30,866 bases of DNA from a virus, in IMG/VR virus record IMGVR_UViG_3300025102_000167, positions 1-30,866 of that record, one strand, 5' to 3'. The notes below the pieces were generated by a model, which saw nothing but the letters and a program-made list of their open reading frames with translations, ran no database searches and was not told the DNA's origin. This document shows, piece after piece, positions 8,853 to 27,904 of this stretch. The translations under genes and the position numbers were made by a program. Position 1 is the stretch's first letter. The number at the start of each line of letters is the position of its first letter.

Positions 8853-11800
8853 ATGCCTGAAATTAAAAATGCTTTCATAAAAGGTAAAATGAATAAAGAC
8901 CTTGATGAAAGATTAATTCCTAATGGTGAATATAGAGATGCAATAAACATAGACGTTGATTATGCTGAAAGCAGTGACGTCGGTGCATTAAAAAATATTT
9001 TAGGTAATACACAAAAAGATAGTATTAGTTTAACTAATGCAACTTGTATAGGTAATATTAAAGATACTGAGAATGATAAACTATATTGGTTTATTACTTC
9101 TGCAGCAAAAGATATTATAGCAGAATATGATATTGCAACATCAACCGCAGTTCCTGTTATAGTTGATACAGGTAATGTTTTAAACTTTAATGTTAATAAT
9201 TTAATTACAGGTGTTAGCATTTTAGATAGCGTTTTATATTTTACAGATAATTTAAACGAACCTAAACAAGTTGATATTGCTTATTGGAAGACACAAACTA
9301 ATACCAACTTTAATACTTTAACAACTGGTTTATCAGAAGAAAGAATTACATTAATTAAAAAATCACCTTTATCAGCACCCACACTAAACATGAGCGCTTC
9401 AACAAGAGGTGGAAATGGTACTTCAGGAAATACAGCGGTTACAACTTCTTTAAATTTAGCATCATCATCCGGTAGTGGTTTAATAAACGCCAAAGACTCG
9501 GGTGATACAATAACAGGTACATTTAGTGTTTCTCCTAACTATCAAGCTAACGATGTTATTATATTTAGCTTTGATTTTACAGATTCTGAAGATGTTATAA
9601 CTAAAACAGAGGCTAGAGTAAAACTAGCATCTAATTATTCTTCTGGCGCAACTTCTTTTTCAGGCGAGTTATTAACTGTAAGTAAAAAAATGAGAGGTGC
9701 TTCTGTAACTTACTCATGTATACTAGAAGAAGACGATCCTTTATTTGAATTAAAGTTCCCTAGATTTGCATATCGTTACAAATATAATAATGGACAATAT
9801 AGTTGTTTTTCTCCATTTAGTAACGCAGCTTTTTTGCCAGATACAACAGTAGGCGCTGGAACTGGTTTTGAATTCAATGCAAAAGATGGTTTTAACTTAG
9901 CAATGGTTAATACATTAAGACAACTAACACTGCAAAATTTAAATCATAATATAAGTGCTGATGTTGATGAAATTGATGTATTATATAAAGATTCTGTTGG
10001 AAGTAATTGTTATGTTGTTGATACTATAAAAAGACAAGCTAATAATTCAATAGCTTCAACTTTTGAAGTAAAAGATGAACAAATATTTAAAGTATTACCA
10101 TCAAATCAGTTATTAAGATTATTTGATAGCGTACCTAAAAAAGCAAAAGCTTTAGACATAAGCGCTAATAGATTAATATTTGGAAACTACACACATCAAT
10201 TTGATTTACCGTTAACGCCACCAATATTTGATATAAAATTAAAGAATAGATATACAGCAGGCGCTTCAAATAGAGGTGAAAAACAATCTATTAAATCAAA
10301 TAGAAAATATCAATTTGGCGTCGTATATTCAGATGAGTATGGAAGACAAACGCCTGTATTAACAGATAAAACTGGTATTATAAAAGTGCCACCTGGGCAA
10401 TCTAAAAACTTAACCAAGTTTAATGCTAAGATAACTAGTTCTGCACCAGCGGGAATGACTAATTATAAATACTTTATAAAAGAAATATCTAAAACAACAC
10501 ATAACTTGTGTATTGATAGTATTTATCAAGACGATCAAGGTTATATGTATTTGTCCTTACCTTCATCTGAAATAAATAAAGTTAAAGAAGAAGATATAAT
10601 ACTTATTAAAAAAGGCAGAAGCAATTCACCTGTTGGATTAAATAGTAGAATTAAAGTATTAGATAAACTAACAACACCACCTAAATTTTTATCTAGACCG
10701 CTTGAGGTTAATTATAAACCTCACAGAATGGATTATTCAGCACAATATGGTGATGGTACATTGCAAACTATTATAAAAGCTGGTTGTACACCAGTACCTA
10801 ATCATAATACTATTTGTTTGGCTAGATTTTTTAGATATGGAGATATAGGTTTAAACGATACTACTTACACTCCTTCCGTTGCACAAGATGGTGTATCAAG
10901 AGAAGGTATTGAAACTTTATCGCCAGGTAAAAAAATAAGATTTGAAAATGGTGGTAATAAATCCGATGTATACACCGTTAAACAAGTAGAAGTACACGAA
11001 GGAGGTGATGATGACGTTGAAGTAACTTTTGAAGAAGAATTTGGAGATGATGTTTTATTTCTTTATGATAATTATGAAAATAATCCAACATTAGCTACAA
11101 TAAGCGGTATAATTGTTGGTGTTGATGAAGTTAATAAAGAAGGTAGTGCAGAGTTTGAAGGTAGATTCTTTTTAAAAGTAAAAGCAGATGATAATTTAAT
11201 AGTTGAATTAGTTGGCACAAACCCTGCTAACTTAAACGCTATGGCAACAACTAACGGTGTTGATGGTGACCCACAAGCAAGTCCTAGTGGAACATCAGGT
11301 ACACCTGGTAATCCAGATAGACAGTATATGGTAAGATTCGGTGGTAAAGGAGGAGCTAATTCTTCAACAACAGCCGGAACAGCCTCAAGTTCTGGTGGAT
11401 TTGGAACATCAGGAGGTGGTAGAGCTGGTATTACTGATTCATCATTTGGCTCACCTGCTATTGATTTAACCAAAGGTTGGCATATAAGTTTTCAAACTAC
11501 GGTAGCTTTTAGTGATACAGAATCTAAATATGATACAAGCCCCTTTGCTAATAATTTAAAAGTTGGAAATTACATTAGCTTTTTTAATAAAACTAATGAT
11601 GGCAATGATACAGCCGCAGATGGCAGTAATTATGATCTTAATCATTACAAAATTGAAGAGGTTGATGTTAGAGACCACAGTGGTGGCCAAAGAGTGTATA
11701 CATTAAGGTTTGATAAAGACTTAGTTGGAGACGTAAGAACATTTTTTGAAACTGTAGACTCAGGAACTTATGGCGCTATTAAGATGTCTGTAAGTGTAAA

Positions 11801-13328
11801 TGAATTTAAGAAAGATTCATTAATTAACATAACAAACCCACCTATATTTGAAGTTGAACCACAAGATGATGTAGACATTGATATATATTTTGAAACACAA
11901 GAAAACTTTACCGTAGCTTCTGATCATGGTAATTTTAATGATTTATCTTACTATAACTGTTTTAGTTTTGAAAACGGAGTTGAATCGTTTATAATTAGAG
12001 ATGATTTCAATGCACCTGCTTTAGGTAAAGGCGTTAGAGTTTCAACAATATTTGAAGACAACTATCAAGAAGAGCTTGTTAAAAGTGGATTAATATTCTC
12101 ACAAATATATAATAGTAAAGCAAGTGTAAATCATTTAAATCAATTTATAATTGCTGAACCTATAATTAAAAATTTAAATCCAGGTTACGGTAGCGTACAG
12201 TTATTACATACAAGATATAACGATATAATTGCATATTGTGAAGACAAAGTTTTAAAAGTATTAACTAATAAAGACGCTTTATTCAATGCTGATGGTAGTG
12301 CGAATGTAACATCTAATAAAGCTGTTTTAGGTCAAGCAATACCTTATAATTCAAACTATGGTATTGGTACACATCCAGAAAGCTTTGCAGATTTTACTTA
12401 TAGAGGTTATTTTGTTGATAAAAATAGTGGAATAGTAGTGAGACATTCAGCAGATGGTATGGAAGAAGTTTCAAACTATGGTATGAAAGATTTCTTTAGA
12501 GATAACTTAAGACTACAATCCGGCAATATATACGGAACATATGATGAAACTAAAAGCCAATACAATGTAAGCTTACCAACAACTATAAATTCTACTATTT
12601 CGTTTTCAGAATCAATAAATGGTTGGCCAAGTAAAAAAAGTTATATACCAGAGGGAGGAGTAAGTATAAATAATAAATACTTTACATTTAAAAATGGTCA
12701 TATATTTGAACATCATACGGGTGCAAGAAATACTTTTTATGGTGTCAAAACAGATTCAGAAGTAACTTTTATATTTAACGAATCACCTGCTAACATGAAA
12801 AATTTTAGAACATTGAATTATGAAGGCGATTCTGGTTGGACATGCGCTAATATTACGACTGATCAGCAAGACGGTAGTGTATCATCTTTTGTACAAAAAG
12901 AAAATAAATACTTTAATTACATATCAGGTGTAGAAGAAACTGAAGGCACTGTAGATATAAAAGCATTAAATGTACAAGGCTTAGGTGCTTATACATCACA
13001 AGCAGTTGTAAGTAGCAATAGAGTATTTACATTTAATTTTGAATTAAATAATGATATACAAATAGGAGATAAGTTATATTATTTAGATGCGTCTAATATT
13101 AAACAGGATTTAGGCAAGATTACGGCAATAAATAAAACAAGTAAAACAGTAACTATAGCAAACACGGGTGAAGTTCCTCAGGCTTCAGCATATATGTTTT
13201 ATGTAAAGAACGCAGAGTATTATACATCCGGTATATTAGGTTACTTTGCAGAAACAAAAATGACAAACACATCAACAGCTTCTAAGGAGTTATACTCCGT
13301 TGGTTCTGAGGTTAGTATAAGTAGTTAA
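8853..13328 (+). CDS. Large tail hub / nozzle ('muzzle'-like) protein
   Basis: A 1491-residue protein. The N-terminus contains KGKMNKDLDERLIPNGEYRD, followed by INIDV...SDVGALKNILGNT, which is the signature start of the stabilisation or muzzle-type tail protein of crAss-like and many marine podoviruses. These proteins form the distal tail tube through which DNA leaves, comparable in position to T7 tail tubular protein B. The remainder is beta-rich with many Asn/Thr/Ser turns. Residues about 804-866 form a Gly/Ser/Thr-rich low-complexity insertion, probably a flexible exposed loop. A WP-containing segment and a second beta-rich region lie near the C-terminus. No separate tail-fibre or receptor-binding gene appears in the window, so host contact could reside here or elsewhere in the genome. 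Confidence 0.72.
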   Translation: MPEIKNAFIKGKMNKDLDERLIPNGEYRDAINIDVDYAESSDVGALKNILGNTQKDSISLTNATCIGNIKDTENDKLYWFITSAAKDIIAEYDIATSTAVPVIVDTGNVLNFNVNNLITGVSILDSVLYFTDNLNEPKQVDIAYWKTQTNTNFNTLTTGLSEERITLIKKSPLSAPTLNMSASTRGGNGTSGNTAVTTSLNLASSSGSGLINAKDSGDTITGTFSVSPNYQANDVIIFSFDFTDSEDVITKTEARVKLASNYSSGATSFSGELLTVSKKMRGASVTYSCILEEDDPLFELKFPRFAYRYKYNNGQYSCFSPFSNAAFLPDTTVGAGTGFEFNAKDGFNLAMVNTLRQLTLQNLNHNISADVDEIDVLYKDSVGSNCYVVDTIKRQANNSIASTFEVKDEQIFKVLPSNQLLRLFDSVPKKAKALDISANRLIFGNYTHQFDLPLTPPIFDIKLKNRYTAGASNRGEKQSIKSNRKYQFGVVYSDEYGRQTPVLTDKTGIIKVPPGQSKNLTKFNAKITSSAPAGMTNYKYFIKEISKTTHNLCIDSIYQDDQGYMYLSLPSSEINKVKEEDIILIKKGRSNSPVGLNSRIKVLDKLTTPPKFLSRPLEVNYKPHRMDYSAQYGDGTLQTIIKAGCTPVPNHNTICLARFFRYGDIGLNDTTYTPSVAQDGVSREGIETLSPGKKIRFENGGNKSDVYTVKQVEVHEGGDDDVEVTFEEEFGDDVLFLYDNYENNPTLATISGIIVGVDEVNKEGSAEFEGRFFLKVKADDNLIVELVGTNPANLNAMATTNGVDGDPQASPSGTSGTPGNPDRQYMVRFGGKGGANSSTTAGTASSSGGFGTSGGGRAGITDSSFGSPAIDLTKGWHISFQTTVAFSDTESKYDTSPFANNLKVGNYISFFNKTNDGNDTAADGSNYDLNHYKIEEVDVRDHSGGQRVYTLRFDKDLVGDVRTFFETVDSGTYGAIKMSVSVNEFKKDSLINITNPPIFEVEPQDDVDIDIYFETQENFTVASDHGNFNDLSYYNCFSFENGVESFIIRDDFNAPALGKGVRVSTIFEDNYQEELVKSGLIFSQIYNSKASVNHLNQFIIAEPIIKNLNPGYGSVQLLHTRYNDIIAYCEDKVLKVLTNKDALFNADGSANVTSNKAVLGQAIPYNSNYGIGTHPESFADFTYRGYFVDKNSGIVVRHSADGMEEVSNYGMKDFFRDNLRLQSGNIYGTYDETKSQYNVSLPTTINSTISFSESINGWPSKKSYIPEGGVSINNKYFTFKNGHIFEHHTGARNTFYGVKTDSEVTFIFNESPANMKNFRTLNYEGDSGWTCANITTDQQDGSVSSFVQKENKYFNYISGVEETEGTVDIKALNVQGLGAYTSQAVVSSNRVFTFNFELNNDIQIGDKLYYLDASNIKQDLGKITAINKTSKTVTIANTGEVPQASAYMFYVKNAEYYTSGILGYFAETKMTNTSTASKELYSVGSEVSISS

Positions 13329-13356: not shown

Positions 13357-14040
13357 ATGAGTGAATTATTAGGTAGCTTTGCTGGTAAAGCATTAGGAGC
13401 AGTGAAAGGTTTAGCTGAAAAAGCTGGAGGCGTTGGTGGCGGAAGAGCTCTTGCGGGAACTGCACAATTAATAGGTTCATTTATAGGTGGACGAAAAAGA
13501 AGAAAAGAGCAAAGAGCAGCAACAGCTGAATTAGCTATGCGTAAACAAAAATATGAACAATTAGATACGTCAAACCCGTATGCTAATATAACAAATCCAT
13601 ATGCTAATTTAACCGTTAATACTCAGGCAGCAGATTTTGCGGCGCAACAAAGCGCTCAAGGAGCAGCAAACATTATGAGCAGTATGGCTTCAGCAGCAGG
13701 TGGTGGGGGTATTGCGGCATTAGCACAATCTATGGCTAATTCACAAGCTCAACAAGCACAACAAGCTTCTGCAAGTATTGCACAGCAAGAACAAAGAAAC
13801 CAAATGGCAGCAGCGCAAGGTGAACAAAGAAAACAAAGCATGCAAGCACAAGGCGAAATGCAATCAAGACAAATGGAAGAAAATAAAGTTAGTACTTTAT
13901 TAGGTATGGCTCAACAAAGAAAAGGGGCAGCAGATAAAGCAAGAGCAGACGCTACACAAGCAGCAGTTGGGGGTATAGGTAATATAGCAATGGGTGCAGC
14001 AGGTGTTGGTCTAGGTGAAGACTTACCTGGTTTATTATAA
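13357..14040 (+). CDS. Internal virion / ejected protein, Ala-Gln-rich
   Basis: A 227-residue protein. The first 45 residues are Gly/Ala-rich with short hydrophobic stretches (LIGSFIGG), followed by a basic patch GGRKRRKEQR and a tandem NPYAN motif (about residues 73-84: NPYANITNPYAN) leading into LTVNTQAADF. The remainder is Ala/Gln/Met-rich coiled coil, ending in another Gly/Ala-rich segment. This pattern (Gly-rich membrane-like ends around an Ala/Gln coil, just after the tail hub) is typical of small internal proteins that are ejected with the DNA in podoviruses. The Gly/Ala segments might insert in the host envelope. The start lies behind AAAAATTATG. Confidence 0.6.
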   Translation: MSELLGSFAGKALGAVKGLAEKAGGVGGGRALAGTAQLIGSFIGGRKRRKEQRAATAELAMRKQKYEQLDTSNPYANITNPYANLTVNTQAADFAAQQSAQGAANIMSSMASAAGGGGIAALAQSMANSQAQQAQQASASIAQQEQRNQMAAAQGEQRKQSMQAQGEMQSRQMEENKVSTLLGMAQQRKGAADKARADATQAAVGGIGNIAMGAAGVGLGEDLPGLL

Positions 14041-14049
14041 ATAAAAATT

Positions 14050-15396
14050 ATGGCAGCAGATCAAACATTAGTAAGAGGCGCAGCAATAGCAGCTCCTAAA
14101 TTTAACAAAATAGAATTATTCAGCGAAGCTCAATTGCAGCAGATGGAAAAAGCAACTATGCTTAAAAAAGCAAGAAAAGCGACTAGAGATGCAGCTATAG
14201 GGGCTCTTGTTAGTGATATTACTGTAAATGAAAGTTTAACGCCACCACAACAAATTAATGCACAATATGAAGCAGCTGGTAATATTAGAAATCAAGTTGC
14301 AGCATTAGCAGCACAAAGAGCTAAGCTGCCTGTGAATTCACCGGAAGCATTTGCTTTAGATCAACAAATAAGTACATTAAAACAATCTTTTACTAATATA
14401 GCTAACAATGCAAAAGATTTTCAAGAATTACAAAAAGAATATGTTGACGGAAGTTGGAATATGTCAGGTGGTGTATCTGAAGAAAATAGAAACAAACTTG
14501 ATGCAATATTTGCTAAAAACGAATATACTATTCAATTTGATGAAAGAGGTAACGCTACATATGTTACAGAGTTTGGCAATATGTCACAAAAAGATTTATC
14601 TAACTATTATGTTAAAGATGATGAAATGGCGCTTTCAATAGTAGGTTATTCAGATGAAGCTTTACAATTAGGAAGCGGTGGAACACAAATGAAAGTTGGC
14701 GGCACTAGGTATAACATGTTAAAGACCAAAGTTAGAAATGACTTGCGTAAGGGCGGGGAGGCAAGAATAAATTCTTTAATATATGATGATCTTGTTGAAG
14801 GACAATCTTTAGGTTTAACTGATTTAGGAGATCAGCAAGCTAATGAAGATGCTGCTGTTGACGCTATAATGAATAACTTAATGAATGTTAACGCACAAGG
14901 TTATAGTGAATATAAATCTAAACCTAGTGGCAATAAAAACGACAAAGACAATAGAACACCAGGAGAAATACAAAGAAGCAAAGCAGCTCAAGCAGATAAA
15001 AAATATGTTAGAAATGGTTTAATGAATATGTCTGCGCCTGACCCTAATCTTTTAGTAAAACCTAAAAAAGATACAGATGGAACTCCAATGGTTCGTACAG
15101 ATATGGAAGAAGCAAATAAGATAGTTTTCTTAGATCACACTATGGACGAAACAAATAAAGTATTAGCGGGTAAAGGTAAAATAACAAAAGTTGGAGATAA
15201 ATATATGCTACAAAAAACGGGAACTTCTGTTAGTGGTCAAATATTAAACGAGGTAGATGTGACTGATCAAATGAATAGTTATATAACTGGCGATAGAGAA
15301 GCATTATTTCAAGTTATAGAAAGAAATATATTTGATGTTGAATCCGTCGATTATGAGGGGTCTGCAGATGATCCAGATTTAAATCCGAATACATAA
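14050..15396 (+). CDS. Internal virion protein, helical, function unknown
   Basis: A 448-residue protein, mostly helical and rich in Ala, Gln, Lys and Asp, with no membrane segments and no catalytic motif that I recognise. It lies between the Ala/Gln-rich ejected protein and the 2402-residue ejected protein. Its stop codon shares one base with the start of the latter (TAATG), so the two are probably translationally coupled. Position suggests a role in the inner core or in DNA ejection, comparable with the multi-protein internal cores of T7-like phages or the cargo proteins of crAss-like phages. That is inference from order only. Confidence 0.55.
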   Translation: MAADQTLVRGAAIAAPKFNKIELFSEAQLQQMEKATMLKKARKATRDAAIGALVSDITVNESLTPPQQINAQYEAAGNIRNQVAALAAQRAKLPVNSPEAFALDQQISTLKQSFTNIANNAKDFQELQKEYVDGSWNMSGGVSEENRNKLDAIFAKNEYTIQFDERGNATYVTEFGNMSQKDLSNYYVKDDEMALSIVGYSDEALQLGSGGTQMKVGGTRYNMLKTKVRNDLRKGGEARINSLIYDDLVEGQSLGLTDLGDQQANEDAAVDAIMNNLMNVNAQGYSEYKSKPSGNKNDKDNRTPGEIQRSKAAQADKKYVRNGLMNMSAPDPNLLVKPKKDTDGTPMVRTDMEEANKIVFLDHTMDETNKVLAGKGKITKVGDKYMLQKTGTSVSGQILNEVDVTDQMNSYITGDREALFQVIERNIFDVESVDYEGSADDPDLNPNT

Positions 15397-18300
15397 TGTT
15401 TGAACTAAACGGTAAAACTTATTCAGTTAGTAAGCTTCAAGCGGCTGCAGCAAAATACAACATGTCTTATGATGAGTATTTGGCCGTTATGAAAGAAAAA
15501 GGTTTAAAAGAAATAAACCCAGAACCAACTTTTGTTGACACTTCAACTGCTGAAGAAGAAGAAAAGCTTTCGTCATATCAACAAGCAACTCAACTCAGTG
15601 CTGATCAACAAAAACAAATTGATGATGAATATGGTACTGAAGATAATCCTAATTTAACTGCATTTTTTGAACTTCCTAAAGTTCCTATTTGGAGTTTTGA
15701 TGCTCCCGTTCCTGGTGGTAGTAATCCAATTTCAAACTTCCTATTCAATCAGGTTAATAAAAACCCAAATCGTAAGCGTGTTCAAACAAAGATTGCCGAA
15801 ATTAAAGAAAAAGACAAAAGAATAATAGACCAAGAAGAAGCTCAATTATTAGTTTTACAAGATTTAAGAAAGGAAAGAAAAGCGGAGTTGATTGGCAATA
15901 ATGAAGTTGATTATATAAATAATACATTTAAACGTAAAAAAACTGGGTTCATGGCTACAGGGCGTGGAGGAGGAGTGGAAATTGAAACCGAATTCTATGA
16001 CAAAGAAGCTCAGGAAGAATATTCTAAAATTGCTCAAAAAGATCAAGAAGATTATAGTAATTATTTTGAAGCACAAAGTAACTATTTAGACAATTTAAAA
16101 GCTGATATTGAAACTACTCAAAAAGAGCTTGAAAAAATTGATAACGAAATTAATAATGGTGCATATGATAGCCAAATAAAAGATGGTGATCAATATGTAA
16201 TAATTAATGACAAAAGAGTACCTGTAAACGTATATAATAATTATAGAAATCTATATGAACAATATGAGAGTAGAAGAAAATCTTTTGATGCTGGTTTAAA
16301 AAGATATACTGATTTTTTTGACGCTAACAAAGAAAAATTTTCTCGTAATGCTTTAACAATAGATAGACTAAGTAGAGACTATAACTATACTAAGAAAAAT
16401 CTTATTATGGCTGGCCAAGGATTTGCTGATATTGGTTTGTTCTTCGCGAAGGGGCTGGTATCGTCACTTCCTGCTTATAAGGTGTCCAATATATTATCGT
16501 CTGATTTTAGAAAAATTACAAAATCTGCAAACGAGCAGATTGACATTAAATGGCGAAATTATAAAAATGAAGTGATGTCAGGCTATGCACCTGATGTTAA
16601 ATTTAAAGATGCTTTTAAAGAAGGCAACTTTTTAAAATTTGCTGGACAAGAAATAGCTACACAATTACCTATATTTACTTTTATTGCAGCAACCGGTGGG
16701 GCTGGTGCCGCGGCGGGCTTAGGTACTACTGCTAATGCTGTTTTTACAGCTAGTGTTGTTGGAAGCCAATCTGGAGAAAAGCAATATGGCGATATGACTT
16801 ATGAAGAATACTTAAGCCAATTAGATGATTTTAAATATAATGATGTAAAATACGACGAAGGCCATAAGCTAATGGTTAGTGCTGGCGTAGGTATGGCTGA
16901 AGGAGCATTTGGTATTTTACCAAGTTTTTATAGTTTAAGAGCTGCACATAAAGTTCTTGGAGGTTCTAGTGGCAAAATAGTAAAAGGATCTTTAACTAGT
17001 GCACAATACAGAAAAAATTTAGCAAATTATTATGCTCAAGGAGCACTTATACCTACAGTTGTTGAGCCATTTGGTGAAGGCTTAACACAATATACACAAA
17101 ACTTATTAACTGATAGACCTGCGTTTGAAAATGTAGATCATGCAGCGTTTTCTGGCTTAATGTTCGGAGTGCTATTAAATGGTGTACCTACTGTTGGTGG
17201 GCACATGATAGGTCAGTTTAATGATATAAATACAAAAAAACAAATTAGATTAAATAATGCTAAAGTTGCTAAACTGAACGCACAATTACTTAAGCTTGAC
17301 GGAAGAACTAAAGCAGCTAAAGACCTGCGAAAAATTATACATGATATAAACGCTGATAGCCAAGCTCTTATAGTCAAAACAGAAAAAATAATAAGAGATG
17401 AAATTGATCCTGTAGAGTTTCAAACTTTTATGGATGAAACAGTTAAGCAAGAAAATTTAAGAAACACTGCCCAAGCTATTGAAGCTTCAAATTTACCAAG
17501 CAGTACAAAGAAAAGCATGTTAGAAGGTTATCAAAAATCTTTTGATAAAGCTACCGCAATAAAAGATGTTATAAGAAATCAAAAAGGTCAAATAGCTTTA
17601 TTAAAGATAACAAATAACGCTAGATATATTCAACTAGAAGAACAAGCTAGAAAAAACTTAGCTCAAAAAGAAGCTACTCCCGATGCCTTATTTGATGAAA
17701 TAAATAACTTATATTATAGAGAAGAAATAAATAAAGATATTAAAAACAGAAAAGCCCTTGATAAAAAGTTTGAAAAAGATAGAGATTATAAAGTTACAAG
17801 AATAGCGGCAGAAACTAATAAAGAACTAATAGAAAAAATTGAGGAACAAGGTTTAGACATAACTGCAGAAAATATACGAAAACTTAAAAACGGGACATTA
17901 AACGGTATAAATGTTACTGATAACAACGGAAATAAATTTGAATTTATATCTATTGAAAATTCAGTTAAAAATTCGAAAGCTGGTATTGTTTCTCACGAAA
18001 GCGATCATACTGTATTGGAGCAAATGTTTGGTAAACTATCTGATGGTGCATTTAAAAATTTAGCTATAGAAATTCAAAAATGGACTCAAAAGAATGATAA
18101 AAATTTATACAGTAAATTATTTTTAGGCGGTAAACAGCAAGCTGATTTAACAAGTTATGAAGAAATAGTTGTAAACTTTTTAGAGCAAGCAGGACTAGAT
18201 ACTTTTGTTTTAAAACCAAAAGGAAGAACATTCTTAGAGTCTATAGCTGTTGGTTTGAATTTTTTAAAGAAAAAGAATTACAATATAGATTCTAAACGAA

Positions 18301-21300
18301 AGGGTAAACATGAAATTGAGTCATTAGTAGAATATGCTAAAAAAATAAAAACTGGAAAGATATTAAAAAAGGATAGAGCTAATGTTAAAAAAATAATACT
18401 TAAAGCTAAGTTGATTGATACTAAACAAACAATTGAACAAGTTGAGGCTAAAAATAGTGAGGTATATAAAAAATTAACAGCTAGCGATAAAAAACAAATG
18501 AGTGATATTGACAATTTTGTCAATAGACGTAATGAAGATGGAACTTTAGTATTACAATCAAACAAAGATTATAGCAATAATGATGAGGCTAGAATAGGTG
18601 TATTTAATGCTTTGAATGCTCCTAATAGTGCATACATGGGTTACTTTACAAATTTAATAAGAGGTGATAAAGACTTTGCTAATTATAGTGATAGTGAAAT
18701 ACAAACAATTGCTGAAGAATTAAGAGACAAAGTATATTTAGATAGGATTGAAAAAAATTATAATCCTAATGTTAATGGTGATGGCACAACATTTAATAGT
18801 TTATTTAGTTTTATATATGGCGATAAAAATGGGCGAGGTGGTAGAGCTGTAAATGTATTCTTACAAATGAAAGAAGACTTTGCTAAAGATCCTACTAAAG
18901 GCGCTTATGAGTTAGCTCCTGAAGTTGAACAAGGCCCAACATTTGATGGTGATAATATAATAGATTATGTAGATCAAACTTTATTAGATAACCAAGGCGA
19001 AATAGATGGGTATACTGACTCAAATGTTAAACAAGTTTTAACTGTAAAACAAAAGCCTGTTATAGATGAAAATGTTGAAGAAGAAGTTAAGCTTTTAGTT
19101 AACTCTATTGTATTTGATGAAAATTTAGATCCTAATAGTAAAGACTATAAAGACATTGTAGAAAAAGTTTATAACACTGTAATGATGCCTATTATAAGAA
19201 AAGCAGTGGGTAAATTTGATAGTTTCTTTGATGAAAATATAGAAAAAATATTTGATCCTAAATTAAAAGTGCTTCCTATACAGTATTTATATCAAGCAGA
19301 AAGATTATCCGATGTTAAAAACTTCGCTGAGTTTGATAAAAGATTAACAACGCAATCAGAAATAAGAAAAGCAAGAGACAATAGAGAAGCTTTTGTAGAA
19401 AATGAAGCACAAGGTGTTGATAGATATAAAAGAAAGAAAGTTAATTTAGATTTCTTAAAAGAATTTTATGGTTATAAGTTAAAAGGTAAAGATTTAACAA
19501 CCACAATAAGGGCAAGAAGAAATGTATTGTTCGGTGTATTAGGCGCGGAAGCAACGTTTGATGCAAAACCTTCTGTACTTGCATTGTCAAATTTAGATGG
19601 CAACAAACAAGCTACAGCATTAAGAAAAGTTGAAAGAGTTGCTGGTATGAAGTTTAGCGAAATACCAACAGATGTTCTTACGCAAATAAGTGCTATCACA
19701 CCTGAATTTGGTTTAGATTTAGATGGTGCTTATGAAGCTATATTAAGTTTAACACAAGTTGCAGGCGTTAAAAACGCTAAAAAGATAATTAACGAAATAG
19801 AAAAAAGTAAAGGACAGATTGGCGAACAGCTTGTAGCTAACCAGTTAGAAAAATTAGGTTTTACAGTTTCAAATAAAGATCAATTAGTTAATCTTCAAAA
19901 AGGTGATTCAGGGCTTGATGTAATAACAGAAGAAGAAATTAATGGTAGTTTAGTTGCTAGCGAAGTTAAAATGCACTTAAAAGATAGATTAGGAAGCGAT
20001 AATAATGCTTTTGACAACTTCCCAAATTTAAATATAGATCCTAAAATTAAAGATGAAATAAAAGCAGTACTCGCGGATCTTGAACAACAGATTGTAGATA
20101 ATCTTAAAAAAGAAGGTTTAGCTGTTATTAAAAGAGGTAAAAATACAATAACAATACCTTATCAAACAAAAGACGGCAAGCCAACAGTTGTTAGAGGTAA
20201 AGAAAAATTAATAGGTGTTACAAGCCAAGCTATTCCAATAGATGGCGGTATTCAAGCTTTTATAGATTTTTATAATGCTAAAGCCGCTAAGAATGGTATT
20301 AAAAGTAAAAAGCTATCTTATTTAATTACTTTTTCACATGGTGTTATATCTATGGATGTAAATCCTCACGGTTTTACAAATGCTAAAAGCGCAGCTACAC
20401 TTTTAAAAGATGCTAAACTTCGTTTACAAGTTGGTTGGTTTTCAACAAACTCTAATAAAGACGCAAACACAAGAACATTAACAAATAGAGCTTATATAGA
20501 ATTAGTTCCAAACACTATACCTAAAGAAACATCTGTATCTGTAAGTCAGTTAAAGAAAAGTGAAACTGTTGTTAATTTAGATAAAGAGATGAACGACATG
20601 ATAGAAAGAAGAAAAGGTATTGAGTCGTTTAAAATATTTAGTAGAGCTAAAGGTAGACAAGTTGGAGAACAAAACTTTAATTACTTAACAAAGAAAGGTG
20701 ATATATTTATACCTCACTCTGCTGAAGACTTAGGCGGGTTTATTTATTCATTTGTTGGTAAAGGAAAACAAGGAGATGCTGATAAACAATTTTTTAAAGA
20801 TCATCTTATAAGACCATACAGCCAAGCTATGATGGCTATAAACAATGAAAGAATGGGTCTAATGGATTCGTTTGACGCTTTAAAAAAGAAAATTTCAGAT
20901 GTACCAAAAAAATTAAAACAAGTGGTACCTGGTGATGTATTCACATATTCACAAGCTGTAAGGGTTTGGATCTGGGATAGTCAAGGTATGGATATACCAG
21001 ATTTATCAAACGCTGATCAAAAGTCTTTAGTTAAAACAGTAAATAATGATTCAGGCTTATTAGAGTTTGCTCAAACATTAATAAAAATAAATAAAGCTGA
21101 AGGTTACCCTCAGCCACAAAACTCATGGCTTGCAGGAAATATCAAAACAGATTTATTTGAAAGTTTAAATAAAGAAAAAAGAAGTAAGCATTTAGAACAG
21201 TGGCAACAAAACGTTGATATTTTATTTTCTGAAAAGAATAAAAATAAAATGAGAGCTGCTTACGGAAATGAATTTGTTGCTAACCTTGAAGGTATATTAG

Positions 21301-22604
21301 AAAGAATGAAGACTGGCCGAAATAGAAAAGCTGGTGGTAGTCCTTTAATTAATGGCTGGTTAGATTGGATTAATGGTTCTGTTGGTGCAATTATGTTTGT
21401 TAACATGCGATCTGCTGTGCTACAAACAATATCTATAGCCAACTACGTAAACTGGAGTGACAACAATATATTAAAAGCAGGTTTAGCATTTGGAAATCAA
21501 AAACAATATTGGGCAGACTTTATTGAAATATTTAATTCTGATTATTTAAAAGAAAGAAGAGGTGGTTTAAAATTAAATGTACAAGAATCTGAATTAGCTG
21601 CGGCAGCAAATAAAGGTGGTGCAAAAGGTGTTGTAAACTTTATATTAAAACAAGGATTTTTACCAACAAGAATAGCAGATAGTTTTGCAATTTCTTCAGG
21701 TGGTGCTAGTTTCTTTAGAAATAGAACAAATACATATATAAAAGAAGGTTTAAATCAAGAGGCTGCGCAGAAAAAAGCTTTTGAAGATTTCATGGAAATA
21801 ACAGAAGAAACTCAGCAATCCTCAAGACCAGACAGAATATCTGCAGAACAAGCAAGTACAATGGGTAGAGTATTACTAGCGTTTGCTAATACACCAATGC
21901 AGTACAACAGAATGATTAAAAGAGCTGGACAAGATTTAATAAATGGTAGAGGTGATTTTAAAACTAATATGTCTAAAATTATTTATTATACTTTCGCGCA
22001 AAACCTTATATTTAACGCATTACAAAAAGCGATATTTGCATTAGGATTTGGTGATGATGAAGTCGATGATGAAGTTAAGAAAAAGAAGTATACACAAATT
22101 TTTGACGGTATGACAGACTCTTTGCTTAGAGGTAATGGTATTAGTGGCCAAGTAGTTATGGCAATTAAAAATACTATACTTAAATATGCTAGAGAAGAAA
22201 AAGTTGAATTAGTGGATGCTTTATACGATTTATCACCACCTATAAATTCTAAAATTAGTAAATTAAACTCAGCAGAATATATATATAAGTATGGTGATAA
22301 AGAGGAAATGAAACAGATAAACTTAAGAAATCCTGCTCTTATGGCGTTTGCTCAGGTTACATCGGCTATATTTAATATACCATTAGATAGAGCAATAAGA
22401 AAAGCAAATAATATAGAATCAGCTATGGCTGAAGGAACAGAAACATGGCAAAGAATAGCCTTATTATTAGGTTGGAACGAATGGGAGTTAGGTGTTGGTC
22501 CACAAGCTGAAAAGGATAAGAAGAAGAAAAACAAAACACCTGATAATATACAGGATCAGATAAGAAAAAGATTAGATAAAAAACTAGAAAAACTAAGACA
22601 ATAA
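15396..22604 (+). CDS. Giant polyvalent internal virion protein with metallopeptidase-like and nuclease-like motifs
   Basis: A 2402-residue protein taking almost a quarter of the window. It opens with a short module (FELNGKTYSVSKLQAAAAKY ... MSYDEYLAVMKEKGL) seen at the start of other phage ejected proteins. Residues about 340-460 include Gly/Ala-rich hydrophobic stretches that may meet membrane. HESDH at 867-871 is an HExxH zinc-peptidase motif, with a later YEEIVVNFLEQ as a possible third-ligand helix. Around 1476-1525, GE..VA..LE.LGF, D1508 and E1523-V-K1525 match the layout of a PD-(D/E)xK nuclease fold. The C-terminal 400 residues (MRSAVLQTISIANYVNWSD ... FANTPMQYNRMIKRAGQDL) resemble the conserved tail of 'large polyvalent proteins' of phages. 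Likely stored in the head and ejected with DNA. Motifs are seen; activity is inferred. Confidence 0.72.
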   Translation: MFELNGKTYSVSKLQAAAAKYNMSYDEYLAVMKEKGLKEINPEPTFVDTSTAEEEEKLSSYQQATQLSADQQKQIDDEYGTEDNPNLTAFFELPKVPIWSFDAPVPGGSNPISNFLFNQVNKNPNRKRVQTKIAEIKEKDKRIIDQEEAQLLVLQDLRKERKAELIGNNEVDYINNTFKRKKTGFMATGRGGGVEIETEFYDKEAQEEYSKIAQKDQEDYSNYFEAQSNYLDNLKADIETTQKELEKIDNEINNGAYDSQIKDGDQYVIINDKRVPVNVYNNYRNLYEQYESRRKSFDAGLKRYTDFFDANKEKFSRNALTIDRLSRDYNYTKKNLIMAGQGFADIGLFFAKGLVSSLPAYKVSNILSSDFRKITKSANEQIDIKWRNYKNEVMSGYAPDVKFKDAFKEGNFLKFAGQEIATQLPIFTFIAATGGAGAAAGLGTTANAVFTASVVGSQSGEKQYGDMTYEEYLSQLDDFKYNDVKYDEGHKLMVSAGVGMAEGAFGILPSFYSLRAAHKVLGGSSGKIVKGSLTSAQYRKNLANYYAQGALIPTVVEPFGEGLTQYTQNLLTDRPAFENVDHAAFSGLMFGVLLNGVPTVGGHMIGQFNDINTKKQIRLNNAKVAKLNAQLLKLDGRTKAAKDLRKIIHDINADSQALIVKTEKIIRDEIDPVEFQTFMDETVKQENLRNTAQAIEASNLPSSTKKSMLEGYQKSFDKATAIKDVIRNQKGQIALLKITNNARYIQLEEQARKNLAQKEATPDALFDEINNLYYREEINKDIKNRKALDKKFEKDRDYKVTRIAAETNKELIEKIEEQGLDITAENIRKLKNGTLNGINVTDNNGNKFEFISIENSVKNSKAGIVSHESDHTVLEQMFGKLSDGAFKNLAIEIQKWTQKNDKNLYSKLFLGGKQQADLTSYEEIVVNFLEQAGLDTFVLKPKGRTFLESIAVGLNFLKKKNYNIDSKRKGKHEIESLVEYAKKIKTGKILKKDRANVKKIILKAKLIDTKQTIEQVEAKNSEVYKKLTASDKKQMSDIDNFVNRRNEDGTLVLQSNKDYSNNDEARIGVFNALNAPNSAYMGYFTNLIRGDKDFANYSDSEIQTIAEELRDKVYLDRIEKNYNPNVNGDGTTFNSLFSFIYGDKNGRGGRAVNVFLQMKEDFAKDPTKGAYELAPEVEQGPTFDGDNIIDYVDQTLLDNQGEIDGYTDSNVKQVLTVKQKPVIDENVEEEVKLLVNSIVFDENLDPNSKDYKDIVEKVYNTVMMPIIRKAVGKFDSFFDENIEKIFDPKLKVLPIQYLYQAERLSDVKNFAEFDKRLTTQSEIRKARDNREAFVENEAQGVDRYKRKKVNLDFLKEFYGYKLKGKDLTTTIRARRNVLFGVLGAEATFDAKPSVLALSNLDGNKQATALRKVERVAGMKFSEIPTDVLTQISAITPEFGLDLDGAYEAILSLTQVAGVKNAKKIINEIEKSKGQIGEQLVANQLEKLGFTVSNKDQLVNLQKGDSGLDVITEEEINGSLVASEVKMHLKDRLGSDNNAFDNFPNLNIDPKIKDEIKAVLADLEQQIVDNLKKEGLAVIKRGKNTITIPYQTKDGKPTVVRGKEKLIGVTSQAIPIDGGIQAFIDFYNAKAAKNGIKSKKLSYLITFSHGVISMDVNPHGFTNAKSAATLLKDAKLRLQVGWFSTNSNKDANTRTLTNRAYIELVPNTIPKETSVSVSQLKKSETVVNLDKEMNDMIERRKGIESFKIFSRAKGRQVGEQNFNYLTKKGDIFIPHSAEDLGGFIYSFVGKGKQGDADKQFFKDHLIRPYSQAMMAINNERMGLMDSFDALKKKISDVPKKLKQVVPGDVFTYSQAVRVWIWDSQGMDIPDLSNADQKSLVKTVNNDSGLLEFAQTLIKINKAEGYPQPQNSWLAGNIKTDLFESLNKEKRSKHLEQWQQNVDILFSEKNKNKMRAAYGNEFVANLEGILERMKTGRNRKAGGSPLINGWLDWINGSVGAIMFVNMRSAVLQTISIANYVNWSDNNILKAGLAFGNQKQYWADFIEIFNSDYLKERRGGLKLNVQESELAAAANKGGAKGVVNFILKQGFLPTRIADSFAISSGGASFFRNRTNTYIKEGLNQEAAQKKAFEDFMEITEETQQSSRPDRISAEQASTMGRVLLAFANTPMQYNRMIKRAGQDLINGRGDFKTNMSKIIYYTFAQNLIFNALQKAIFALGFGDDEVDDEVKKKKYTQIFDGMTDSLLRGNGISGQVVMAIKNTILKYAREEKVELVDALYDLSPPINSKISKLNSAEYIYKYGDKEEMKQINLRNPALMAFAQVTSAIFNIPLDRAIRKANNIESAMAEGTETWQRIALLLGWNEWELGVGPQAEKDKKKKNKTPDNIQDQIRKRLDKKLEKLRQ

Positions 22605-22607
22605 ATT

Positions 22608-22703
22608 ATGCCGTATGTAAGTGCAGCCCAACGTAAAGCAGTCTGGGCATCAAGAAACGAACAAAAAAAGAAAAAGAAAGTTAAACGTAAAAAAAGAAAA
22701 TAA
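22608..22703 (+). CDS. Basic microprotein, 31 residues
   Basis: It starts at an ATG four bases after the giant protein's stop, behind AAATTATG. The sequence begins MPYVSAAQRKAVWASRNEQ and ends in an almost pure Lys/Arg tail. The 'S-x-AQR-x-A' start is a recurring motif of small phage proteins of unknown function. The tail suggests nucleic acid binding. The next ATG follows after two bases (TAATTATG), a spacing typical of the real genes here, which supports it being translated. Confidence 0.6.
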   Translation: MPYVSAAQRKAVWASRNEQKKKKKVKRKKRK

Positions 22704-22705
22704 TT

Positions 22706-22837
22706 ATGGCAAAAGACGCGTGTTATAAAAAAGTAAAGGCAAGGTACAAAGTATTTCCATCTGCATATGCTAGCGGAGCAATTTCTAAATGTAGAAAAGT
22801 GGGTGCTGCTAATTGGGGTAATAAATCAAAAAAATAA
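22706..22837 (+). CDS. Basic microprotein, 43 residues, conserved marine-phage family
   Basis: The sequence MAKDACYKKVKARYKVFPSA followed by YASGAISKCRKVGAANWG is a pattern I recognise from short phage proteins (Cys-Tyr-x-x-Val-Lys ... Pro-Ser-Ala-Tyr-Ala-Ser-Gly ... Cys-Arg-Lys). No function is known to me. Two cysteines (residues 6 and 29) could form a disulfide or bind metal. It is Lys-rich at the C-terminus. It is too short for standard ORF length cutoffs but has a good start context and motif conservation. Confidence 0.75.
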   Translation: MAKDACYKKVKARYKVFPSAYASGAISKCRKVGAANWGNKSKK

Positions 22838-22841
22838 AAAT

Positions 22842-23057
22842 ATGAAAAGTTGTAGAATGCAAATACTAGGACCTGATCCTAATAATCCAAAAAAACCTGC
22901 TAGAATGCCTAGTGATGCTGATAAAAAAGCTGCGATAAAAGGTAAAATAAAAGCGTGTAATGTTAAAAAAGCACAAAAATTAAAACAAGGAGCTAAAGAC
23001 TTATTTAACAAAGGGGTTAAAAAAGTTGAAAATAAAATAAACAAAATAAAAAACTAG
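22842..23057 (+). CDS. Basic microprotein, 71 residues
   Basis: I chose the ATG at 22842 (MKSCRMQILGPDPNNPKKPA). The upstream in-frame ATG at 22767 lies inside the preceding gene and would add a 25-residue extension read in another frame of it. The 22842 start follows that gene's stop by four bases, like its neighbours. The product is Lys/Ala-rich, with two Cys (residues 4 and 39) and a helical, amphipathic Lys-rich C-terminus. No known function. Confidence 0.65.
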   Translation: MKSCRMQILGPDPNNPKKPARMPSDADKKAAIKGKIKACNVKKAQKLKQGAKDLFNKGVKKVENKINKIKN

Positions 23058-23062
23058 AAATT

Positions 23063-23275
23063 ATGCCAGCAAAAACTAATAAACCTCAAATAGGGGACGT
23101 CAAAGAAGAATCATATTTCATGAACAAAGCATATAAAATGGAGGGTAAAGATAAAAAGAATTTTAAACCTCATAAAATGTACTGTAAAAATGGTTCTGTT
23201 CACAATGCTAAAACTTATAAGCAACACTTAGCGCTTAAAAAGAAAGGTTGTGATCATAAGCCCATAAAAAAATAA
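23063..23275 (+). CDS. Basic Cys/His-containing microprotein, 70 residues
   Basis: The product is Lys-rich, with two Cys and several His (KMYCKNGSVHNAKTYKQHL ... KKKGCDHKP). The C...H...H...C-H spacing might bind zinc, but no standard finger pattern is met. Its stop codon shares a base with the start of the next gene (TAATG), so the two are probably coupled. Function unknown. Confidence 0.6.
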   Translation: MPAKTNKPQIGDVKEESYFMNKAYKMEGKDKKNFKPHKMYCKNGSVHNAKTYKQHLALKKKGCDHKPIKK

Positions 23276-23553
23276 TGGCAGTAAGAAAAACTAAAGAAGG
23301 CGCAAATCTTAAACGTTGGTTTAAAGAAAAATGGATTGACGTAAGAACTGGTAAGCCTTGCGGAAGAAAGAAAGGTGATGGCAGAGGCGTACCATATTGT
23401 AGGCCTAGTAAAAGAGTATCTAGTAAAACTGTTAAAACATCTGGTGAAATGTCATCATCTGAAAAAGCAGCTAAGATAAGAGAAAAAAAATCTTTAGGTC
23501 AACCAGCAGGTAAACCAAGAAGAGTAAAAAATGTTAAAAGAAGTAAAAAATAG
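23275..23553 (+). CDS. Basic small protein with WFKEKW...CGR motif, 92 residues
   Basis: It contains LKRWFKEKWIDVRTGKPCGR, then GVPYCRPSKRVSSKT and a Lys/Arg/Ser-rich tail. This block (Trp-Phe-Lys-Glu-Lys-Trp ... Cys-Gly-Arg ... Tyr-Cys-Arg-Pro) recurs in marine phages and giant viruses as a domain of unknown function. The two Cys are 14 residues apart. It closes the run of five basic microproteins; 32 gene-free bases follow before the lysis genes. Confidence 0.75.
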   Translation: MAVRKTKEGANLKRWFKEKWIDVRTGKPCGRKKGDGRGVPYCRPSKRVSSKTVKTSGEMSSSEKAAKIREKKSLGQPAGKPRRVKNVKRSKK

Positions 23554-23585
23554 GTAATTACATATAGTATAGAAACTTAATCGTT

Positions 23586-23870
23586 ATGGCAAACAAAATA
23601 TCAGAAAATACAGAAGTACAACTTGATCTCAAAACGATCGGAATGATCGTAGGCGGAGCTATTGCTTTAGCCGCAACTTATTTTACGTTGCAGGCTGACA
23701 TAGAGCTCGCGAAAGAACTACCTAAACCGGATATATCAAGAACAGAGTTCGATTTAAAAGACGAATTAATTCGTTCGACAATAATTGATATTGATGAAAA
23801 GGTAGACAAAAACGCAGAGAAGCTTGATGACATTGATGAAAAGTTATTCAAGATAATCCAAGAAAAATAA
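23586..23870 (+). CDS. Single-helix membrane protein, candidate holin or inner-membrane spanin
   Basis: A 94-residue protein: a short N-terminal part, one membrane helix (about residues 18-37, MIVGGAIALAATYFTLQADI), then an acidic segment and a C-terminal coiled coil (IDEKVDKNAEKLDDIDEKL). With the N-terminus inside, the coiled coil would lie in the periplasm, as in an Rz-type spanin. A small one-helix protein next to an endolysin may instead be a holin. The position three bases before the secreted thioredoxin-fold gene and near the M15 peptidase supports a lysis role, but the motif evidence does not separate these options. Confidence 0.55.
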   Translation: MANKISENTEVQLDLKTIGMIVGGAIALAATYFTLQADIELAKELPKPDISRTEFDLKDELIRSTIIDIDEKVDKNAEKLDDIDEKLFKIIQEK

Positions 23871-26046: not shown

Positions 26047-26165
26047 AATTTTTTGATTTTAATAATAACGGAAAGTATGATTGGTGGGAGTATATATTAC
26101 CTTTTGTAATAATACTTATCATTGAAATTATTGCTGAGATTGTGGCACGATACGTGACGTTTTAG
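26043..26165 (+). CDS. 40-residue protein with EF-hand-like loop and one membrane helix
   Basis: It starts in an ATGA overlap with the methyltransferase stop. Residues 5-16 (DFNNNGKYDWWE) follow the 12-position EF-hand loop: Asp at 1, Asn at 3 and 5, Gly at 6, Asp at 9, Glu at 12. A membrane helix follows directly (YILPFVIILIIEIIAEIVA). The 3' end overlaps the last 38 bases of the minus-strand glycosyltransferase gene. It is short, but the stop-start coupling and the motif argue that it is real. Single-copy EF-hand loops in such small membrane proteins are unusual. Its role is unknown; calcium binding is inferred from the motif only. Confidence 0.6.
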   Translation: MKFFDFNNNGKYDWWEYILPFVIILIIEIIAEIVARYVTF

Positions 26166-26934
26166 AAAATTTTGGTGCAGTCTTCATTATCTTTTGACCC
26201 CTCATCCAATTAGTATACGGTACTTCATTTTCTTTCAAGTCTGAAAGTATATGCCAATTTATTAATCCCCTTCGTTGAAGAGACCTCATATATTGTTGTT
26301 CCATATCTTTATCATGAGCTGGTCTATTTAAAATATAGACTGGCAAGTGCCAACTGTGTGGATCACAATTACTAACTTTACCACGTTTATCACGCGGTCT
26401 TTTATTAATTGTTTTAGCAAAGAAGTCAAAGCCTATAAGATCAATACTTTTATAGGTTTTTATTTTTTGTAAAAACCATACTATAGTAATAAAACCTGCA
26501 CTAGGTCTATAATCATTAGTACCTTTCAAATCTTTACCAAACTTATTCATAACCGTAATAAGTTCTTTATCAGAATACATTTGTGTGTATTCAGGAAAGT
26601 CTTTTGGTAACCTATCTTCTAATACCCAATCCTTAAGCATTAAGTTACCTCGACTTCTATTTATTAATACTTTCGTATTTTTAAATTTGCCTGTAGCAAA
26701 TTCTTCTTTAACATTGTTAAACGCTGGCGCTCTAAATTGACCGGTTACCCATATGTCACATTTAGTGCCAAGACTTTTTTCTTGTAAAGGTGTAGCTTCA
26801 ATAGCTCTTCCAAACCTTATAACAATATCATACTTATCGATAAAGTCTGAAAGATTATGATTCATAATCTCTACAGAGTTACCGATAAATATAATACGTT
26901 TATCTTTTACAAACTGTTGTATATCCTCCACCAT
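26128..26934 (-). CDS. Sialyltransferase-like glycosyltransferase (GT29-type motifs)
   Basis: A 268-residue protein. Its motifs match the order of sialyltransferase-like enzymes: IIFIGNSVEIM (residues 14-24, nucleotide-sugar contact), YDIVIRFGRA (35-44), LGTKCDIWVTG (55-65), YRPSAGFITI (142-151), IDLIGFDFF (164-172), and a His-rich end with HSWHLPV (193-199) and HDKDMEQ (207-213). The family transfers sialic acid or a related sugar from a CMP-sugar to an acceptor glycan. There is no signal peptide or membrane anchor, so it would act in the cytoplasm. Its start overlaps the end of the upstream GT8-like gene by 28 bases. The donor sugar cannot be read from the sequence. Confidence 0.72.
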   Translation of the reverse strand: MVEDIQQFVKDKRIIFIGNSVEIMNHNLSDFIDKYDIVIRFGRAIEATPLQEKSLGTKCDIWVTGQFRAPAFNNVKEEFATGKFKNTKVLINRSRGNLMLKDWVLEDRLPKDFPEYTQMYSDKELITVMNKFGKDLKGTNDYRPSAGFITIVWFLQKIKTYKSIDLIGFDFFAKTINKRPRDKRGKVSNCDPHSWHLPVYILNRPAHDKDMEQQYMRSLQRRGLINWHILSDLKENEVPYTNWMRGQKIMKTAPKFSKTSRIVPQSQQ

Positions 26935-27557
26935 TCTTCTGAAGCTTCTGCGTCTTTATAACTATCAAACCAAGGTCCGCCGTTTGTATAATGTAATGCC
27001 TTAGCACCTTCTATATTATAATAACCAACTAATGAATTATATTCTTTAGGTATTGAACCTATGTTATCTTCATTTATAAAATGAAATTCATGTAGCTGTG
27101 CTGGCGTTGCGTTATCTAAATATTCTTTTGTTAATTTATTTTTATACCATTCATTTCTGAATATCATTAAGCTAGACCAGTTTTTCTTTGGGTAACTTTT
27201 ATTAACAACACCATTCATTTTGTTAGCGTCTGCTTCATAGTCATCATGCTTTACAACAGCTAAGTTATATTGATTTATATATTTTCTTATTTCTCTTGGA
27301 TCACATTTCCATAAGAAATCATTATCACAAAACATTGCAATACCTTCGTAATTACAAAGTAATGGTACATAGAATCTAGTAAAAGAAAATTCTGTTGATT
27401 CTCCATTAACATCATCTCTGCCATAGATGCCAGCATCTTTTAACTTAGCTTTATCTAACCAAGTTATTTTAGCTTCTGGCCAATAATATTTAATTGATTG
27501 TGCGCAAACTTTTGTTGCGTCTGTATATCTTGAGTCGTGTCCTATAAATATTCTCAT
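26907..27557 (-). CDS. GT8-like glycosyltransferase (GT-A fold)
   Basis: A 216-residue protein starting MRIFIGHDSRYTDATKVC, a usual GT-A beginning. FSFTRFYVPLLCNYEGIAMF leads into CDNDFLWKCD with the metal-binding D78-x-D80 motif. NWSSLMIFRN and a C-terminal KALHYTNGGPWF (His189) correspond to the acceptor side and the 'H-x-x-G-x-x-P-W' end of GT8-type enzymes. It should transfer a hexose or similar from a nucleotide sugar with Mn2+. No anchor is seen, so it is cytoplasmic. It lies two bases from the upstream cupin gene and overlaps the downstream glycosyltransferase, suggesting they build one sugar chain. Confidence 0.75.
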   Translation of the reverse strand: MRIFIGHDSRYTDATKVCAQSIKYYWPEAKITWLDKAKLKDAGIYGRDDVNGESTEFSFTRFYVPLLCNYEGIAMFCDNDFLWKCDPREIRKYINQYNLAVVKHDDYEADANKMNGVVNKSYPKKNWSSLMIFRNEWYKNKLTKEYLDNATPAQLHEFHFINEDNIGSIPKEYNSLVGYYNIEGAKALHYTNGGPWFDSYKDAEASEEWWRIYNSL

Positions 27558-27559
27558 AA

Positions 27560-27904
27560 CTATGCTTTTTTACCTGATGATCTTCTGTTAATATCATCAT
27601 GATTAAACTCTGCCCAGTACAATTCAAAAGCAACACCATCTTCTAATCCTTCAAACTGATGAAACTTTCCTGGCTTTACCATAGTAAAATCACCAGCTTC
27701 TAATATTGTTTCATCAACAAGACCTTGATCATCTTGCCAAACTCTAACGAGCATTTTACCGGATTCAACAAAAAATCCGTTCCATTTAAATTTGTGTTCA
27801 TGTTCTGAACATTTAAATCCTTTATTATATTCTATTCTATGAAATTCTAATACACCGTTCTTGTGTATCATTTCTGTTTTACCCCAAATTTTTCCTGCTT
27901 TCAT
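27560..27904 (-). CDS. Small single-domain cupin
   Basis: A 114-residue beta-barrel cupin. Motif 1 reads KCSEHEHKFKWNGFFVESGK with H35 and H37 and a later Glu. Motif 2 reads EAGDFTMVKPGKFHQFEG with H82. These residues bind a metal ion in small cupins such as sugar isomerases, epimerases and dioxygenases. Being beside two glycosyltransferases and a second cupin-fold oxygenase, a sugar-nucleotide or sugar-modifying role is possible, but not shown. Its start shares a base with the upstream oxygenase gene's stop. Confidence 0.75.
   Translation of the reverse strand: MKAGKIWGKTEMIHKNGVLEFHRIEYNKGFKCSEHEHKFKWNGFFVESGKMLVRVWQDDQGLVDETILEAGDFTMVKPGKFHQFEGLEDGVAFELYWAEFNHDDINRRSSGKKA

Follow-up and report, generated by a model that had tools for sequence, protein, structure and literature searches.

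Residues ~1465–1705 of P0001, a giant protein of 2402 amino acids, are well supported by profile homology and residue conservation as a nuclease domain of the PD-(D/E)xK type. P0001 is encoded in the window, a 30.9-kb IMG/VR record (IMGVR_UViG_3300025102_000167) that is probably a fragment of the genome of a marine virus. We consider it fairly likely that the domain is a metal-dependent DNA endonuclease of an unnamed family, which would serve as an exchangeable module of a virion-borne polyvalent (ejection-type) protein. The domain would combine a catalytic half resembling that of Hjc resolvases with a conserved C-terminal half of its own. Its predicted active site, and the parts of P0001 that surround it, are positioned in the window as follows.

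19788..20510, plus strand: PD-(D/E)xK (Hjc-like) nuclease domain, residues ~1465–1705, assigned by profile homologues, invariant residues, hhalign and AlphaFold2
19824..19826, plus strand: E1477, predicted catalytic Glu in the first helix of the core (GxxxE), 47/47, aligned with the Hjc Glu
19917..19919, plus strand: D1508, predicted catalytic Asp (in GLDVI), 47/47
19962..19970, plus strand: E1523-V-K1525, predicted ExK catalytic pair (in SEVKM), 47/47, aligned with the Hjc ExK
20271..20342, plus strand: second conserved half with Y1626 (48/48), K1629 (47/48) and G1649 (48/48)
15396..22604, plus strand: P0001, giant polyvalent-type protein and final gene of the virion-structural module, assigned by synteny and by homology, in the C-terminal domain and elsewhere, to more than 115 IMG/VR giants
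20538..22556, plus strand: C-terminal domain conserved among the giants, residues ~1715–2387, assigned by sequence identity to relatives

An earlier note on this DNA had proposed the nuclease at 19815–20110. That span is real and covers the catalytic half, but the whole domain is longer and extends to ~residue 1705 (nt 20510). E1477, D1508, E1523 and K1525 are found where they had been claimed in the translation: GQIGE begins at residue 1473 (nt 19812), and the codons of E1523 and K1525 are 19962–19964 and 19968–19970. As a G-E...D...ExK pattern could occur by chance in a protein of 2402 residues, conservation was used as the test. Single-sequence searches with the whole protein or the domain gave no match in the phage collection or IMG/VR, and relatives were therefore reached via a neighbouring virion protein and then via the C-terminal domain of the giant. 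The giant set obtained from IMG/VR comprises 117 non-redundant proteins, in each of which 650 or more residues precede the C-terminal domain. A first nuclease profile, seeded with seven hand-picked copies, recovered five non-seed members in round 1 (L094, 1e-20; L120, 5e-12; L117, 9e-11; L092, 4e-5; L132, 4e-4), and L162 was gained in round 2 (E 5e-29). Iterative profiles locate the domain in 17 further giants of IMG/VR. They also find it alone, as a protein of 220–260 amino acids, in cyanophages of the Kyanoviridae as well as in two genomes of Pseudanabaena. Weak PDB matches of the first profile, to ribosomal L7a and YtoQ, were taken as chance.

Thirteen divergent copies from independent IMG/VR giants, 18–31% identical to that of the window, share as their sole invariant columns E1477, D1508, E1523, K1525 and Y1626. 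The first four are kept in 47/47 covering rows of a 48-row alignment, down to 13–20% identity (the 48th row is a truncated sequence that lacks the catalytic part), which bears out the expectation that D1508, E1523 and K1525 would be conserved in relatives. Together they correspond to the catalytic set of PD-(D/E)xK nucleases, and the active site is apparently intact. Y1626, K1629 and G1649 are conserved in the stand-alone cyanophage and Pseudanabaena homologues too, and this second half (YxxK...G) is a possible DNA-recognition part. These three residues are conserved like catalytic ones, which would suit a domain that has kept the fold but acts on RNA or modified DNA, or that binds or processes DNA within the ejection machinery; PD-(D/E)xK domains do include members that are not DNases. 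That E, D, E and K are invariant, however, argues for catalysis, and the same family occurs alone beside a DNA methyltransferase. We regard these alternative roles as improbable.

To which known nucleases is the family related? With the 48-row family profile, a direct HMMER search of all PDB sequences returned five chains at E <10, all Hjc-type Holliday-junction resolvases (best E 0.043); one of these, ST1444, was deposited as a hypothetical protein and we read it as an Hjc homologue. The Pseudanabaena homologue alone has 7bgs, a Holliday junction resolvase, as its sole PDB match (E 0.04). In hhalign, the family was compared with an alignment of five Hjc-type proteins (three such resolvases from Thermus phages, an uncharacterised homologue and a protein annotated as PDDEXK endonuclease), which it matches at 91% probability and a score of 46.5, catalytic residues in register. 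Controls reached a maximum of 16.5 across 100 column shuffles and 15.4 upon reversal, and both the giants alone (30.2) and the stand-alone set (38.1) exceed these values. Together with the invariant residues and a C5 cytosine methyltransferase neighbour described below, these matches to PD-(D/E)xK families support the initial suggestion of a Holliday-junction-resolvase-type nuclease, as far as sequence comparison can indicate.

Similar to the Hjc/Hje resolvases (PF01870, including the phage resolvase 7bgs), the new family has GxxxE, D and ExK in register within an N-terminal core. In contrast to them, it measures about 220–250 rather than 140–165 amino acids, adds the conserved C-terminal half YxxK...G, is fused in giants or adjoins a C5 methyltransferase, and has no Pfam Hjc match: PF01870 does not figure among the Pfam matches listed for the 48 members, nor does anything in the record of the window match it. 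Weak, sub-threshold matches of the window's domain alone, to YraN (E 0.0023), UPF0102, Mrr_cat and Mrr_cat_2, extend over the E...D...ExK stretch. Length and second half differ from those of the restriction-type PD-(D/E)xK families YraN/UPF0102 (PF02021) and Mrr_cat (PF04471), and we do not claim membership of either. Pfam, NCBIfam, PADLOC and PHROGs, run on the window, gave sub-threshold matches for it at best.

Within the giants, the nuclease is present in 16/117 (about 14%), and in 15 of these 16 it ends 7–69 residues ahead of the C-terminal domain. The slot region of 62/117 giants instead shows a HAD-like DxDxT motif, mostly ~155 residues ahead of the C-terminal domain, a call that is based on the motif and not on a profile. 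Nuclease and HAD motif occur together in a single giant of the 117 (Fisher p 4e-5, or 6e-4 on 92 clusters). When the nuclease is mapped onto a FastTree phylogeny built from 115 rows of the C-terminal domain, its distribution takes 11 or more gains or losses to explain, each imposed by branches with support. The middle region of the giants is variable, whereas their C-terminal domain is close to that of the window, with 40–47% identity to the first relatives used and up to 55% to IMG/VR loci (54% to L087). Judged by these comparisons, the nuclease is a mobile, exchangeable module in a slot just ahead of the C-terminal domain.

Further domains and stretches were noted in the giants. Among the L087–L307 giants, a HAD-like domain (DFDDTLA...LTAR...FxDD), which the window lacks, occupies the slot in about half of the relatives, and PF11019 (DUF2608) weakly matches three slot sequences. 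The syntenic giant of the Flavobacterium elemo phage, gp18 (L005 20917–32001, 3694 aa), contains a DUF3293 domain (E 1e-12), possibly another exchanged module. By eye, the middle region of the L046 giant (15773–23635) and of Panino CDS0069 (L003 20703–26192) shows an ART-like stretch, LYRGG...FISERFTDDIARREGYE, perhaps an ADP-ribosyltransferase, and the L023 and L046 giants contain, C-terminal of a HExxH motif, a stretch that by eye resembles sigma-70 region 2, e.g. SYNPDKGVPLAAYINKYFALRAASIKNKYL.

The stand-alone form was traced to the cyanophage P-SSM2, in whose genome the sequence profile has one match, PSSM2_192 (225 aa, E 1.6e-14; the same length as Q58MG2). This protein is matched at E 3.5e-64 by PHROG_26930, a family of unassigned function that also matches the giant copies of L147 and L120 at E 3e-10, whereas the window's own copy falls short; neither PHROG_26930 nor PSSM2_192 was mentioned in the literature searched. 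In Kyanoviridae, the gene lies among replication genes, within a gp43–uvsX–gp41–MazG–cytidylyltransferase neighbourhood; 60/80 IMG/VR loci likewise have gp41 nearby. As it occurs in 10 phage records compared with 474 that have a UvsX match, we consider the protein accessory.

The second setting in which the domain stands alone is cellular. A search of 84,980 species genomes found relatives in three, two Pseudanabaena and one Nonlabens. The Nonlabens match (L401) was set aside, since its contig reads like DNA of cyanophage P-TIM40 and is probably contamination. In both Pseudanabaena genomes, the genes of a 220-aa homologue and a C5 cytosine methyltransferase lie tail to tail, beside a second pair of open reading frame (ORF) and methyltransferase.

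L399 6001–9854 and L400 4696–8550: Pseudanabaena two-methyltransferase cassette, with two C5 methyltransferases that are each convergent with an ORF

The two methyltransferases match PF00145 at 2e-72 and 3e-96; the ORF other than the nuclease homologue encodes 317 amino acids and includes a KTDVLIRF...SVK stretch. Type II restriction endonucleases and their methyltransferases are often arranged in this way. The Pseudanabaena homologue is thus placed as a restriction enzyme would be and is a candidate partner of the C5 methyltransferase, and the locus is a possible double restriction-modification cassette.

These two settings bear on whether the nuclease would act on foreign DNA or on that of the phage itself. 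A structure-specific nuclease for Holliday junctions or other branched DNA could trim or resolve the phage's own DNA at entry, replication or packaging, and would then not be a weapon. We take this rival seriously, since resolvases are the nearest relatives with a solved structure: the closest characterised ones are of the Hjc type, and the stand-alone copies adjoin the gp41 primase–helicase and UvsX. In addition, the T4 gp4 head-completion nuclease, likewise of the restriction endonuclease fold and tied to the phage virion, is needed for packaging (PMC7824862). Compared by description only, however, gp4 is small and a protein in its own right, which belongs to a TnsA-like family and serves packaging, whereas the new domain is an exchangeable part of giants. 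The distribution of the new family, in ~14% of giants, in few phage records relative to UvsX and with at least 11 gains or losses, is patchy where a house-keeping enzyme would be expected to be steadier, and the C5 methyltransferase beside the Pseudanabaena copy suits restriction better than resolution. We therefore favour an attack on host or competitor DNA, given that the module is accessory and swapped and that its cellular setting resembles restriction, and rate resolution of the phage's own DNA as unlikely, if still to be reckoned with.

The placement of P0001 among virion proteins follows from its neighbours. Two proteins in the record, the portal and a large virion protein, match phage virion families, and the genes leading up to the giant, together with its peptidase-like motif, are as follows.

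8853..13328, plus strand: virion structural protein, the anchor for placement (phrog_14478, E 8e-131; Cellulophaga, Flavobacterium and Maribacter phages)
13357..14040, plus strand: small Ala/Gln-rich protein, directly upstream in the module (weak matches to elemo gp20, E 0.001, and phi13:2 gp124, E 0.003)
14050..15396, plus strand: 448-aa protein upstream of the giant (weak match to phi38:1 gp100, 'structural protein', E 2e-4)
17994..18008, plus strand: zincin-like metallopeptidase motif HExxH (HESDH), residues 867–871 of P0001, assigned by alignment with relatives

The protein at 8853..13328 matches those of flavobacterial podovirus-like phages, namely Cellulophaga phi38:1 and phi13:2, Maribacter Panino and the Flavobacterium elemo phages. 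Both weak matches of the Ala/Gln-rich protein are annotated as virion structural; its product is a possible component of the ejection complex, and the 448-aa protein is probably a virion protein. The giant gene ends the structural module in five related viruses as well (phi38:1, phi13:2, Panino, elemo and ctfjg026). HESDH lines up with the HExxH of L087, L236, L094, L096 and L298, and HExxH is found in 104/117 giants.

Polyvalent proteins of phages and conjugative elements are likewise very large, with a zincin HExxH and other putative enzymes in multiple domains and in a virion-gene context; those of phages are described as injected with the DNA, and zincins are their commonest domain (PMC5512222). 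P0001 resembles such a protein in its zincin HExxH, conserved C-terminal domain and last position in the virion module. It has no match to Pfam at E up to 10, including MPTase-PolyVal, LPD or similar domains, and for that reason we call it polyvalent by architecture and motif and not as a curated member. Several catalytic-type domains appear to be joined in one large polypeptide, here the HExxH motif and the nuclease domain and in relatives a HAD motif or DUF3293. The proposal that P0001 may be a multi-effector is thus strengthened, both by the alignment of HESDH with the HExxH of relatives and by the slot as an apparent site of exchange. In comparison with the 2017 survey of polyvalent proteins (Iyer et al.), which reports no DNases except ParB-like ones (PMC5512222), a PD-(D/E)xK nuclease here recurs as a module.

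Downstream, on the minus strand, the window contains small enzyme-like genes at 26128–28716 (by eye two glycosyltransferase-like ORFs, a cupin and a JmjC/cupin-like oxygenase), a cluster that perhaps serves surface or DNA modification, and a ribonucleotide reductase-like ORF of 573 amino acids at 28709–30430, also by eye.

How might such a protein act? Judging from gene position and relatives, the giant would be packaged with the genome and is probably injected into the attacked bacterium, entering alongside the DNA as infection starts. The zincin domain may then process the giant and could release the nuclease, by analogy with P1 DdrB and related proteins (PMC5512222). E1477, D1508, E1523 and K1525 would bind metal and cut DNA. 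The target, the least certain element, may be the DNA of the host or of a resident competitor, and the phage itself would be spared through modification, sequence choice or timing.

Several points weigh against this reading, and the structural check is the weak point of the nuclease assignment. The AlphaFold2 domain model, built from a 17-row alignment (pLDDT 81.5, pTM 0.74), comprises H14–26, a single strand residue near 31, E49–55, E58–65, H89–112 and E124–128. The element order is compatible with the alpha-beta-beta-beta-alpha-beta core that the earlier note had foreseen, but the first core strand is nearly absent, and Foldseek of two AlphaFold2 models against the PDB found no PD-(D/E)xK structure; among viral models, the top match of the first model is P-SSM2 Q58MG2 (E 1.4e-6). 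The window's domain stays below the cut-off of every Pfam family. Both the Foldseek and the Pfam results would also be expected if the spacing of E, D and ExK were a coincidence and there were no nuclease domain. Such a coincidence is refuted at the level of sequence by the fact that 47/47 diverged homologues keep exactly these residues, as well as by the controlled hhalign match to Hjc, and we consider it highly improbable.

The remaining counterpoints concern the virion and the fate of the phage's own DNA. No modification or self-protection gene was recognised within the 31-kb fragment. A search for a proteomic (mass-spectrometry) record of the giant in virions found none, and its phi13:2 counterpart, gp127, is hypothetical in GenBank and a virion structural protein in RefSeq. 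These last two observations would fit a giant that is a late cytoplasmic protein, its nuclease acting within the infected cell, which would be compatible with either nuclease reading. However, both here and in the five related viruses the gene follows those of virion proteins and closes the structural module, several counterparts are annotated as structural, and a zincin combined with swapped enzymes matches the architecture of proteins described as injected (PMC5512222). A purely cytoplasmic giant is in our view unlikely, and an exchangeable nuclease module on a virion-borne protein remains our preferred reading.

In conclusion, we tentatively propose, with rather less confidence than we place in the nuclease module itself, that marine flavobacterial podovirus-like phages deliver, together with their genome, a giant protein with a cassette slot, in which a new nuclease family, a HAD-like enzyme and others are swapped over evolution. 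Restriction-like cutting by the delivered nuclease would make it an exchangeable first-strike weapon against the DNA of the host or of a resident competitor; the nuclease itself also occurs in cyanophages and at a cyanobacterial locus resembling restriction-modification. A protein family so far listed as unknown (PHROG_26930; PSSM2_192 of P-SSM2) thereby acquires a predicted function that can be tested, and the Pseudanabaena locus offers a candidate restriction enzyme alongside its C5 methyltransferase. It would add a class of DNase to phage proteins that are thought to be injected, for which the main survey had ParB-like domains only. With one exchange slot in a large, common marine phage group, further effectors may be readable there, and the swapping of the nuclease among relatives suggests that these viruses arm their particles with interchangeable enzymes.
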